64,000 nt of DNA. Source: Chryseobacterium indologenes (GTDB lineage Bacteria; Bacteroidota; Bacteroidia; Flavobacteriales; Weeksellaceae). Both the position numbers and the translations under genes were made by a program. The stretch's first letter is position 1. Every line of letters begins with the position of its first letter. The notes under the pieces are model-generated. The model did not search any database. It was not told the origin of the DNA and worked only from the letters and a program-made list of their open reading frames with translations. The stretch is taken from assembly GCA_016025055.1 (NCBI GenBank), contig CP065590.1, forward strand, positions 4,650,001 through 4,714,000. The letters run 5' to 3'. Positions 33,006 to 36,062 of this stretch are shown here, piece after piece.

Positions 33006-34991
33006 TTACAGTAAATTTTCATCTACAAGGTTGGGAAGCGTCACTTTCAGATTCGGTTCCACTTCCATCGCTCTTTTAATAGCGAAAATAGCGCCTTCGT
33101 TTCTTGCCCAGCTTCTTCTGGAAATCCCGTTATTGACATCCCAGAAAAGCATCGATTTCAGTCTTCGGTTAGCATCAGCACTGCCATCCAACAACATCCC
33201 GAAACCTCCGTTGATAACTTCTCCCCAGCCTACTCCTCCTCCATTATGGATGGACACCCAGGTTGCCCCACGGAAACTGTCGCCGATGACGTTGTGAATC
33301 GCCATATCTGCGGTAAATCTCGATCCGTCATAAATGTTGGATGTTTCTCTGTAAGGGGAATCCGTTCCTGAAACATCATGGTGGTCTCTTCCTAAAACCA
33401 CAGGTCCTATTTCTCCGTTTTTGATTGCATTATTGAAAGCTTCGGCAATCTTCATTCTTCCTTCCGCATCAGCGTATAGGATTCTTGCCTGTGACCCTAC
33501 CACCAGTTTATTTTCCTGGGCGCCTTTGATCCACTGGATATTATCTTTCATCTGCTGCTGAATTTCTTCAGGAGCAGTTTTGATCATCTCTTCAAGTACT
33601 GCACAGGCAATATCATCTGTTTTCTGCAGATCTTCAGGTTTTCCGCTTGTACATACCCATCGGAACGGCCCAAAACCGTAATCGAAGCACATAGGTCCCA
33701 TAATATCCTGAACATAACTAGGATATTTGAATTCTCTTCCTAAAGTAGGATTACCAGCCATTACATCTGCTCCCGCTCTGGAAGCCTCCAGCAAGAAAGC
33801 ATTTCCGTAATCAAAGAAATACGTTCCTTTTTGAGTGTGTTTATTGATGGCTGCAGCATGTCTCCTCAAAGTTTCCTGAACTTTTTCTTTGAATAATTCA
33901 GGATCTTCAGCCATCATTGTATTAGATTCTTCAAAGCTCTGTCCTGCAGGATAATAACCACCTGCCCAAGGATTGTGAAGTGAAGTCTGATCGGATCCGA
34001 TATCTATTCTCAGGTTTTCCTGATCAAATTTCTCCCAAACCTCCACAATATTTCCAAGATAAGCCAGAGAAACGGTTTCTTTATTTTCCTGTGCTTCTCT
34101 TACCCTTTTCACCAATTCATCAAGATTTTCATGGATTTCATTGACCCATTTCTGGTCGTGGCGGATTTTGGTAATCTTTGGATTCACTTCAGCACAAACG
34201 GTAACACAACCGGCGATATTTCCAGCTTTGGGCTGTGCTCCACTCATTCCTCCCAATCCGGATGTTACAAAAAGACCTCCTTTCGGTTCTTTGTTGATCT
34301 TTCTGAAAGCATTCAACACTGTAATGGTAGTCCCGTGAACAATACCCTGCGGGCCGATATACATATAACTTCCTGCTGTCATCTGCCCGTACTGGGTCAC
34401 CCCAAGAGCGTTGAATTTTTCCCAGTCATCAGGTTTAGAATAATTCGGGATCATCATTCCATTGGTTACAACAACCCTTGGTGCCTCTTTGTGTGAAGGA
34501 AATAACCCCATCGGATGCCCGGAATACATTACCAAAGTCTGCTCATCACTCATTTCCGATAAATATTTCATCGTCAGCAGGTATTGCGCCCAGTTCGAGA
34601 AAACGGCTCCGTTTCCACCATAGGTAATCAACTCATGAGGATGCTGTGCAACGGCATAATCCAGGTTATTCTGGATCATCAGCATAATCGCTTTCGCCTG
34701 CTCAGATTTTCCCGGATAATCACTGATAGACCTTGCTTTCATCTCATAATCCGGACGAAAACGATACATATAAATTCTTCCGTAGTCTTCGAGTTCCTGC
34801 TTAAATTCAGGAATCAGCTCTGCATGAAACCGAGGATCGAAATAACGTAAAGCATTTTTTAATGCGAGCTTTTTCTCTTCTTCTCCTAAAATCTCCTTAC
34901 GTTTTGGAGCATGGTTGATATTTGTTTCATATGGTTTTGGCTGTGGCAGCTGAGTAGGAATTCCCTGTTGGATTTGTTCTTGAAATGTCAT
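33006..34991 (-). CDS. hutU: Urocanate hydratase
   Basis: 661-residue urocanase, converting urocanate to imidazolone propionate in histidine breakdown with tightly bound NAD+. Start at 34991 (MTFQEQIQQGIPTQLPQPKP). Typical segments include YGGNGAVFSNWAQYLLTMKY, MTAGSYMYIGPQGIVHGTTI, TSGLGGMSGAQPKAG with the NAD loop, and FDYGFGPFRWVCTSG with the active-site Cys. Length is of the long bacterial form. No hutH, hutI or hutG is in the window, so the pathway is split in this genome or lies elsewhere. Confidence 0.96.
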   Translation of the reverse strand: MTFQEQIQQGIPTQLPQPKPYETNINHAPKRKEILGEEEKKLALKNALRYFDPRFHAELIPEFKQELEDYGRIYMYRFRPDYEMKARSISDYPGKSEQAKAIMLMIQNNLDYAVAQHPHELITYGGNGAVFSNWAQYLLTMKYLSEMSDEQTLVMYSGHPMGLFPSHKEAPRVVVTNGMMIPNYSKPDDWEKFNALGVTQYGQMTAGSYMYIGPQGIVHGTTITVLNAFRKINKEPKGGLFVTSGLGGMSGAQPKAGNIAGCVTVCAEVNPKITKIRHDQKWVNEIHENLDELVKRVREAQENKETVSLAYLGNIVEVWEKFDQENLRIDIGSDQTSLHNPWAGGYYPAGQSFEESNTMMAEDPELFKEKVQETLRRHAAAINKHTQKGTYFFDYGNAFLLEASRAGADVMAGNPTLGREFKYPSYVQDIMGPMCFDYGFGPFRWVCTSGKPEDLQKTDDIACAVLEEMIKTAPEEIQQQMKDNIQWIKGAQENKLVVGSQARILYADAEGRMKIAEAFNNAIKNGEIGPVVLGRDHHDVSGTDSPYRETSNIYDGSRFTADMAIHNVIGDSFRGATWVSIHNGGGVGWGEVINGGFGMLLDGSADANRRLKSMLFWDVNNGISRRSWARNEGAIFAIKRAMEVEPNLKVTLPNLVDENLL

Positions 34992-35125
34992 ATTGCTATT
35001 TAAAGTTCTATGTTTAAACAATTTTTTATGTTTTAAAGATATTCAAATTATAAAATATAGGCAAGTAGAGGTGAAAAGCGAATTTGTTTATTTTAAATTA
35101 TCATCCTGAATTTACTATTTAGTAC

Positions 35126-35148: not shown

Positions 35149-35200
35149 TTCCCCTCCTCTGGAGGGGTGGATTCGTCGAAAGACGAAGACAGGGTGGTTA
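35149..35200. repeat. Left inverted repeat of the DUF559 element
   Basis: TTCCCCTCC ... GGTGGATTC, hairpin TTCGTC-GAAA-GACGAA, then GAAGACAGGGTGGTT. Matches the reverse complement of 35623-35681 except in the hairpin stem. Confidence 0.9.
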
Positions 35201-35211
35201 CACACACAATC

Positions 35212-35649
35212 ATGAAAGAAATCCTCACTACTATTAATGGAATCCCCATTGTCCGAAACTTTGTAGAAAATTTACCCTACAGTCCCCATTTAAAATCATT
35301 GCTAAAAGGAAAACGTAAAGCCCGGATTCTAGGCGAAGTATTATTCTGGAAAGAAGTCAGAGCAGGGATATTCTATAAAATTGATTTTGACAGACAAAGA
35401 ATTATCGGAAATTATATTGTTGACTTTTATGTGAAGACATTAGGATTAGTCATTGAAATTGATGATTCAAACCATGATGAAAAACAAGACTATGATGTTG
35501 TAAGACAAAAATACCTTGAATCTTTAGGGTTATTAGTATTCAGCATTGATGATTATGAGGTGCGAAATAATATGAATAGAGTAATGAAAGAGCTGGAGGC
35601 ATTTATTATTCTGCACTATGGAACCACCCCGTCTTCAAAAATTGAATAA
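35212..35649 (+). CDS. DUF559 domain-containing protein (Vsr-like nuclease)
   Basis: 145-residue protein of the DUF559 family, related to very-short-patch-repair and other PD-(D/E)xK-type nucleases. Start at 35212 (MKEILTTINGIPIVRNFVEN); upstream codons lie in the inverted repeat. Core motifs: ARILGEVLFWKEVRAG (first Glu), RIIGNYIVDFYVKTLGLVIE (D...xE with catalytic spacing), QKYLESLGLLVFSIDDYEV. The last nine residues (GTTPSSKIE) are encoded by the right inverted repeat. DNA cleavage activity is plausible but unproven. The whole gene forms the interior of an element flanked by inverted repeats. Confidence 0.9.
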   Translation: MKEILTTINGIPIVRNFVENLPYSPHLKSLLKGKRKARILGEVLFWKEVRAGIFYKIDFDRQRIIGNYIVDFYVKTLGLVIEIDDSNHDEKQDYDVVRQKYLESLGLLVFSIDDYEVRNNMNRVMKELEAFIILHYGTTPSSKIE

Positions 35650-35681
35650 TTTTTGAATCCACCACTCCAAGGGAGGGGAAT
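35623..35681. repeat. Right inverted repeat of the DUF559 element
   Basis: ACCACCCCGTCTTC, hairpin with an AAAAATT/AATTTTT stem, then GAATCCACCACTCCAAGGG and AGGGGAA. Inverted relative to 35149-35200; it overlaps the last codons of the DUF559 gene. Confidence 0.9.
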
Positions 35682-35768: not shown

Positions 35769-36062
35769 TTAGGTTAAAACATCATCATTTTCTTCCTCAT
35801 GATCATCATCATTGTCACTTAAGCTCCAATAATTGTTTTCTTCATCTTCCTCCCCTATTTCTTCCATTTTATCATCCTCTTCTGCTCCCGGGATATCGAG
35901 CCCCTTATCTATTTTATCTTCATCGGGGTCTTCGTCTACAATCGGATTTCCGTCTCCGTCTAGCGGAATATGTTTTTCTCTTTTAAATATATCTTCATTA
36001 GGACTATAATCCATTTGTTCTAATTTCCTGTTTTGCTCATTAATATTTTTCTCTGGTGCCAT
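35769..36062 (-). CDS. Hypothetical acidic protein
   Basis: 97-residue, strongly acidic, probably disordered protein: MAPEKNINEQNRKLEQMDYS, then a long Asp/Glu/Asn-rich C-terminus (DEDPDEDKIDKGLDIPGAEE, NDDDHEEENDDVL). No membrane segment or known domain. Its own terminator follows. Related short acidic ORFs occur in Chryseobacterium, function unknown. The strong codon bias to GAT/GAA gives low complexity, but the ATG, stop and terminator support a real gene. Confidence 0.65.
   Translation of the reverse strand: MAPEKNINEQNRKLEQMDYSPNEDIFKREKHIPLDGDGNPIVDEDPDEDKIDKGLDIPGAEEDDKMEEIGEEDEENNYWSLSDNDDDHEEENDDVLT

Follow-up and report, generated by a model that had tools for sequence, protein, structure and literature searches.

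Introduction

Among the described systems closest to the locus reported here is the pairing of REP and REPIN repeats with RAYT genes (TnpA-REP; Nunvar 2010, PMC2817692; Bertels and Rainey 2011, PMC3116915), in which, as these papers describe it, the gene is framed by inverted copies of its REP and its presence tracks REP number. A second relative is the boxC/PIT/TM-ECO repeat, an intrastrand triplex motif reported by Holder (2015; PMC4666352) from 262 proteobacterial genomes. According to that report, the E. coli motif forms a stable triplex in vitro, in vivo footprinting did not support a stable triplex, more variable loci also occur, and mobility genes were never found around the sites; earlier work cited there had found neither promoter nor terminator activity. 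Triplex-forming repeats of this E. coli type are thereby on record in hundreds of genomes with neither an enzyme nor a known origin, and in the main text of the report no word starts with endonuclease or DUF. A third point of comparison is provided by the CGTC-tagged REPs (Di Nocera 2013, PMC3733652). YcjD, the E. coli member of the DUF559 family, was assigned to the PD-(D/E)XK superfamily with a profile that detects Vsr (PMC1189080), where the passages on the family state no role or repeat partner for it. In the open-licence literature, as represented by titles and the beginnings of abstracts, we found no published link between DUF559 and repeats.

Here we describe a DUF559 gene from Chryseobacterium indologenes that is framed by two inverted copies of a repeat. 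The window, i.e., the whole stretch of 64,000 nucleotides that was analysed, corresponds to bases 4650001-4714000 of a single-contig genome of 4.92 Mb. The framing repeat also occurs dispersed in its genome, and pairings of a related kind are found in distant bacteria, which makes the enzyme a candidate partner for repeats on record without one. Our preferred reading, to which we assign a probability of roughly 0.6, is that the gene and its two ends constitute a REPtron-like unit in which a DUF559 nuclease takes the place of an HUH transposase and the mark is a triplex-type hairpin.

Anatomy of the locus

The gene, its two ends and its neighbours are arranged in the window as follows.

33006..35021, minus strand: hutU-like gene (671 aa), the neighbour by which the usual locus in the genus is recognised; presumably urocanate hydratase (hutU), a name given from its sequence rather than by family search
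35149..35199, plus strand: upstream end; the same plan is found upstream of the genus orthologues
35151-35167: hairpin 1 of the upstream end, CCCCTCC(tct)GGAGGGG
35172-35187: stem 2 of the upstream end, TTCGTC(gaaa)GACGAA
35192-35199: tail of the upstream end, containing GGGTGGTT
35212..35649, plus strand: DUF559 (PF04480) PD-(D/E)XK nuclease-like gene, 145 aa
35622..35680, minus strand: downstream end, inverted, overlapping the last 28 bases of the gene including the stop
Within the downstream end: hairpin 1, CCCCTCC(ctt)GGAGTGG, with one mismatch
Within the downstream end: stem 2, TTCAAAAATT(attc)AATTTTTGAA, and the tail GGGGTGGTT
35769..36062, minus strand: acidic ORF (97 aa), the other neighbour, present at many of the orthologous loci read

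The inverted repeats that the original prediction had placed around the gene are present on both sides, and their shared blocks are as nearly perfect as it had claimed. Both ends follow the plan TTCCCCTCC-loop-GGAGGGG, TGG, stem 2, GAC(R)GGGTGGTT, with one base changed in the G-arm of the right end, and TTCCCCTCC, GGTGGATTC and GAAGACRGGGTGGTT are exact in both apart from R; between these exact blocks stands TTCGTC/GACGAA on the left and TTCAAAAATT/AATTTTTGAA on the right. A 22-base hairpin-1 pattern (at most 3 mismatches) matched twice in the window and not once in 100 shuffles, and single-stranded DNA folding on the C-arm strand gave z -3.1 for the left and z -1.6 for the right end. The right repeat also encodes the C-terminus of the protein (..TTPSSKIE, then the stop), again as predicted; among 12 aligned genus orthologues, ten have TTPSSKI, one (L061) has TTPSSQI, and in one (L066) the match stops short. 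AATT is found at both ends of the element with no clear target duplication, and because the flanking AATT is palindromic, a duplication there is indistinguishable from the element itself.

The window gene matches the Pfam family DUF559 (PF04480; E 2.6e-22, 79.2 bits, cut-off 20.6), and its product has all invariant residues of a 31-protein alignment (R35, E42, W46, R50, F59, R61, Q62, D71, E82, D84, H88, D95, R98, G106). By family profile and conserved residues it is a DUF559 protein of the PD-(D/E)XK type, of the same family as YcjD (PMC1189080), and it matches the solved 'Endonuclease-Like Protein' 3hrl (E 1.4e-13). The element had been expected to lack a transposase, and the Pfam scan indeed returned DUF559 and MTES_1575 only, with no transposase domain and no tyrosine transposase related to IS200/IS605 of the kind found in RAYTs. 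A DUF559 profile (A1) additionally matched a mobile intron protein (PDB 3r3p, E 4.2e-5) and PvuRts1I (PDB 4oq2 and 4oky, E 0.0024 and 0.0029), a hint that DUF559 may be akin to homing and modification-dependent nucleases.

With the REP/REPIN-RAYT system as described in PMC2817692 and PMC3116915, the locus shares inverted cognate repeats that frame the gene, dispersed solitary repeats, inverted doublets, and a gene presence that correlates with repeat abundance; it differs in that a tyrosine transposase is replaced here by a PD-(D/E)XK DUF559 protein with a triplex-type hairpin. The boxC/PIT/TM-ECO repeat has the same C-arm, G-arm and G-tail in mirror order, and inverted pairs are reported for it in PMC4666352, but its second loop consists of 3 bases, whereas the window ends have a hairpin in that place and arms of 7 bases, so that neither window end contains the full motif CCCTCNCCCN3-6GGGNGAGGGN3GGGNGAGGG. 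CGTC-tagged REPs (as described in PMC3733652) resemble the window repeat, whose reverse complement reads CGTC where stem 2 begins at its base, and differ from it in stem length and first stem pairs. In the window the CGTC sits in a composite two-hairpin repeat, and inspection by eye did not find there the unpaired CGTC, the 8-9 bp stem starting with AT, the loop of 4-5 and the CCA tail of these REPs. Identity with CGTC-tagged REPs was dropped because distant DUF559 ends, also compared by eye, share the order of C-arm, G-arm and G-tail and not the CGTC.

Fold of the repeat

Stem 2 varies between copies, at some orthologous sites wholly, and its pairing is kept, i.e., the fold is under selection, and on one strand. 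We compared 109 distinct stem-2 regions derived from 180 matches in the fetched loci: the arms of a copy are 97.8% paired with each other, and 65.0% when arms are swapped between copies of equal stem length. Since the fold routine maximises pairing, refolded chimeras served as the reference; the mean fold score was 7.87 for real copies, 5.10 for refolded chimeras and 3.25 for shuffled cores, and 14.7% of the chimeras reached the real median. When G.T and A.C were given the same score, 38 G.T and 0 A.C mispairs were counted in the stems, which implies that the fold of one strand matters, although the binomial p of 7e-12 overstates the bias because the copies are related. Stem lengths and first stem pairs vary widely across copies. 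The original prediction had deduced selection on the fold from the exchange of the stem between the two window ends with pairing retained; the selection itself is borne out by the covariation across copies, but the left-right difference alone is no evidence of compensatory change, because the two window ends represent recurring end subtypes that are seen in the orthologues as well.

In the genus consensus, the tail GGGGTGG mirrors the arm GGAGGGG with T for A (fit 7/7 with T.A:T), an arrangement that a purine-motif intrastrand triplex requires. As in boxC/PIT/TM-ECO, the tail of each window end mirrors the purine arm, with one mismatch to the triplex per end, located in the tail on the left and in the G-arm on the right. 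Where the arm differs in distant ends, the tail has changed with it so as to remain its mirror (e.g., GGGGGAAGG with GGATGGGGG or GGAAGGGGG; GGGGGAGGA with AGGTGGGGG). Among 101 asymmetric arms, the tail fits better as a mirror in 41 and equally well both ways in 45, the direct copy being the better fit in 15 of the 56 untied arms; the mean mirror score was 0.681 versus 0.539 with tails swapped between loci (200 swaps, maximum 0.579). Judged by its sequence, the tail is the strand of a predicted triplex.

DUF559 genes and repeats in distant bacteria

The cross-phylum scan was performed with four proteins as queries, and the best 80 of 572 confirmed loci were analysed, a set that favours proteins resembling the four queries and in which one locus was too short. 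In this set, which spans many phyla, the inverted similarity of the flanks exceeded that of all 60 shuffles in 57/79 loci and that of all in-locus placements (2,890 in all) in 52/79, and in 22/79 distant loci, including one of N. gonorrhoeae (L195), inverted flanks beyond shuffles were absent. The repeats at the N. gonorrhoeae locus, read at L187, are weak upstream and form an array downstream. Within the same best 80 of 572, purine-arm hairpins have their C-arm outward 127 times (61/80 loci) and point the opposite way 3 times. The published TM-ECO motif, with at most 1 mismatch, was found in 36 of 88 DUF559 loci. Within the genus, both ends are also present at 28 of the 29 best loci other than that of the window; flanks recur and hairpins covary, so that neither of the two results named in advance as speaking against the original prediction was found.

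From the order, 196 genomes were sampled. Outside the window's own family, repeats were present in 7/24 DUF559-positive and in 1/143 DUF559-negative genomes (p 4e-6, descent ignored); two of the seven (G209 and G262) have copies next to the gene only, and leaving both out gives 5/24 (p 2e-4, descent ignored). The association of DUF559 genes with such repeats across phyla is well supported, by counts that take no account of descent. Exact copies of the triplex pattern were counted in 24 genomes that had been hand-picked, mostly for loci with such ends, and occur in 21 of them (0 to 38 copies each; control 0). In Variovorax guangxiensis (L209), ten tail-to-tail doublets hold 20 of the 33 copies, with spacers of 40-49 bp (counted by hand), one pair faces the other way, and the nuclease gene lies, by its coordinates, inside another pair. 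The alphaproteobacterial genome of L241 (G321) has five doublets in reversed order (minus then plus), 19-26 bp apart, i.e., more than one doublet geometry exists.

Several single loci are of note for their architecture. In Sphingomonas, a DUF559 gene (L188:2897-3342) is located between sufB and sufC with C-rich/G-rich hairpins on both sides, the right one lying, as in the window, within the last part of the coding sequence, whose product ends in PHPNPSPEGEG. The frame of the Legionella anisa gene is an inverted repeat of about 147 bases (L200:3849-3995 and downstream of the match; alignment score 252), much longer than most others. Arrays of ends beside DUF559 were seen at L060, L063, L191 and L187, in the genus and also in Photobacterium and Neisseria, as if amplified in place.

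Position of the gene in the genus

A DUF559 match is present in 76/118 genus genomes, strong in 69 and weak or fragmentary only in 7. The 69 strong genomes contain 74 strong DUF559 places, of which 63 lie no more than 2.5 kb from hutU and 11 lie elsewhere, five of the latter being second copies in genomes that are also occupied at hutU. Ten of the 11 genes away from hutU were read, and nine of these have both ends (at most 5 mismatches per end), which shows that the framed unit has occupied other sites. We also read 70 regions upstream of hutU, the 30 closest ones and 40 chosen mainly for a missing gene. DUF559 sequence was found in 21 of them, in two (G058, G065) as a fragment only; among the 49 gene-less sites, five keep two inverted ends 41-50 bp apart, five keep one end, eight keep an outer-hairpin scar (at most 2 mismatches; three are exact TTCCCCTCCNNNGGAGGGGAA), and at 31 nothing was recognised. 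Ends or a hairpin scar were thus kept at 18/49 gene-less sites, and the scar is what a deletion between two hairpin-1 copies would leave.

The pattern in the genus is one of inheritance with loss more than of movement: in most cases the gene occupies a single site next to hutU, from which it has been lost in some genomes and in a few relocated, and is therefore not a freely moving element. The idea of an element that is moved or maintained together with its nuclease stands in part, for the relocations that carried both ends, whereas the predominance of the hutU locus and its gene-less sites with ends or scars go against it. The ends also occur far from the gene, and it is mainly the end repeat alone that is dispersed, something the original prediction had no means of seeing; the original interpretation is in sum partly supported. 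DUF559 matches in pieces or with stops occur in seven genomes (G038, G063, G069, G081, G090, G093, G113), signs of recurrent decay.

A model for the nuclease and its repeats

In analogy to the RAYTs, we propose that the DUF559 protein may read a folded strand, cut near it, and spread or renew the repeats in trans. The repeat would fold on one strand, with its C-rich and G-rich arms forming hairpin 1, followed by a second hairpin or a short loop and then by the G-rich tail that mirrors the G-arm and may fold back onto hairpin 1 to form a purine-motif intrastrand triplex. This folded single strand, e.g., on the lagging-strand template, is most likely what the candidate structure-specific nuclease recognises; the enzyme would nick beside it, and repair or strand transfer would place copies of the repeat at new sites in trans. 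Inheritance of the gene would be mostly vertical, with occasional loss by deletion between hairpin-1 copies, and the wholesale replacement of stem 2 at fixed sites might represent conversion or re-insertion by related copies. We infer the binding and cutting of the repeat by the nuclease, the triplex in the cell and this route of spread from the computed patterns.

If DUF559 is the partner, the spread of these repeats becomes a question for the bench, and the system would consist of a protein of 117-145 residues with a solved fold (3hrl) and a substrate of 35-59 bases. A domain of unknown function would gain a role, and REP-like dispersal would have arisen with more than one class of enzyme. 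More tentatively, and with odds that we place somewhat short of even, the DUF559/YcjD proteins could be the dedicated enzymes of boxC/PIT/TM-ECO repeats throughout bacteria, non-HUH nucleases that would recognise an intrastrand-triplex hairpin as their mark, disperse it in trans and represent a second, independent solution to the REP problem.

The main rival is a host repair nuclease that removes or resolves triplex-prone hairpins during replication, the repeats themselves spreading by other means; the gene would be kept where repeats are a burden, and would carry them as a self-regulating or accidental frame. Membership in a Vsr-like family (as described in PMC1189080) agrees with such a role, the scars show that hairpins of this kind delete, the gene mostly stays at one place in the genus, and the co-occurrence of gene and repeats fits as well. 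We nevertheless regard this explanation as unlikely, since it leaves unexplained why copies face inward around the gene in many phyla with their C-arms outward (127 to 3 in the best 80 of 572 loci), and why genes that lie elsewhere in the genus have kept both ends in nine of ten cases. Even a mere caretaker of this kind would still be an enzyme dedicated to a non-B DNA structure.

A homing-like selfish gene, whose nuclease cuts an empty target so that repair copies the element in, and of which the solitary repeats are remnants or targets, is improbable. The profile match to the mobile intron protein 3r3p and the 11 strong places away from hutU, with their second copies and retained ends, would suit it, but 63 of the 74 strong places are at a single locus, solitary copies outnumber the genes, and around 85 solitary copies no common target beyond AATT was found.

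Dispersed copies in the genome and the genus

The unit with a DUF559 nuclease that we favour further resembles the RAYT/REPIN case in that a framed gene is accompanied by dispersed repeats. According to a protein search, the genome of the window has one DUF559 gene, and seven solitary repeats lie far from it, each in a gap between ORFs (simple ORF scan); five of the gaps are between genes on the same strand, one is convergent and one divergent. Across the genus, the exact repeat pattern is found in 94/118 genomes, with 0 hits of the reversed-pattern control in all 118. We read 96 copies with their flanks and classed 85 as solitary-type. In the latter, the bases before CCCC are, going outward, T (83/85), T (85/85) and A (81/85), and no common target beyond AATT appeared over 60 bases.

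The copy number follows the presence of the gene. The median of exact copies is 7 in the 69 strong genomes, 1 in the 42 genomes without a match and 0 in the 7 with weak or fragmentary matches only (69 strong versus 49 others, Mann-Whitney p 1.3e-7; after subtraction of two end copies per strong genome, p 7e-4; descent ignored in both), and any copy is then left in 55/69 strong versus 28/49 other genomes (Fisher p 0.013, descent ignored). Repeats still occur in 25 of the 42 DUF559-negative genomes, which fits a slow decay but equally an independence of repeats and gene. The copies in DUF559-negative genomes would also suit a different enzyme, RAYT-like or an IS transposase, that spreads the repeats, with DUF559 as a passenger in an inherited repeat pair; we consider this very improbable, as DUF559 genes of many phyla share the framing, each with its own repeat sequence.

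Short paired forms of the repeat exist too: pairs less than 60 bp apart in the fetched genus loci are tail-to-tail in 13/13 cases (eight with at most 3 mismatches per copy), inverted doublets like those of RAYT/REPIN systems. The seven solitary sites of the window's genome were compared with up to four relatives each. At two of them (L002, L010), a relative holds a repeat with a wholly different stem 2 at the same site. One site (L004) is empty in three relatives; at another (L003), two relatives have the repeat with the same stem type and two could not be aligned; at a further one (L012), the copy of the nearest relative is altered; and at the last two (L005, L007) no clear repeat was seen in the relatives, the alignments being poor. 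The nearest relative (G077), which has neither the nuclease nor an exact copy, has altered copies at three of the seven sites, as expected if copies decay without the nuclease.

The least credible reading takes the repeats for terminators of transcription or for control elements in RNA, with DUF559 genes merely lying among them: the places of the repeats between ORFs are compatible with it, and the 38 wobble-type mispairs, all G.T, would suit an RNA hairpin too, but no terminator-like site and no Rfam match was found at either end of the window element, the mirror tail has no terminator role, the inverted framing of DUF559 genes exceeds all in-locus placements in 52/79 loci (best 80 of 572), and the earlier work cited in PMC4666352 had found no such activity.

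In a subset of solitary copies (L004, L070, L080, L149-L151, L153, L161, L164, L169, L170), a stretch like ACAACTGAAGACGT is found shortly before CCCC. At the L004 site this stretch belongs to what the relatives lack; it may belong to an extended version of the element or represent a preferred target. A peptide reading upstream of some solitary copies (TTEDV..IPLLWRGG) was rejected as a protein feature because most of the upstream peptides look unrelated, at least 12 open codons being present in that frame in 73/157 copies. Carriage by viruses or phages was likewise rejected: seven stretches of viral contigs matched a pattern and none was confirmed, phage records gave one partial repeat match, and the plasmid collection gave 18 records, several of them chromosome-sized.

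The ycjD gene of E. coli

The DUF559 gene of E. coli is ycjD, with a match in 3365/5426 complete genomes. In MG1655, a perfect motif is located 167 bases downstream of ycjD; a recognisable inverted pair around E. coli ycjD was not found, nor was the motif found around the two ycjD-less E. coli sites that were read. E. coli genomes with a motif match have it at 1 to 33 places each (median 18). One O157:H7 strain is without ycjD, and three other O157 strains list 15 motif places. Since the presence of ycjD follows the phylogroup, as described in PMC12817139, we make no claim about ycjD and motif number within E. coli. In E. coli strains without ycjD (L315, L316), an efflux operon is located upstream of fabI at this place, in agreement with the description of ycjD-less E. 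coli in PMC12817139.
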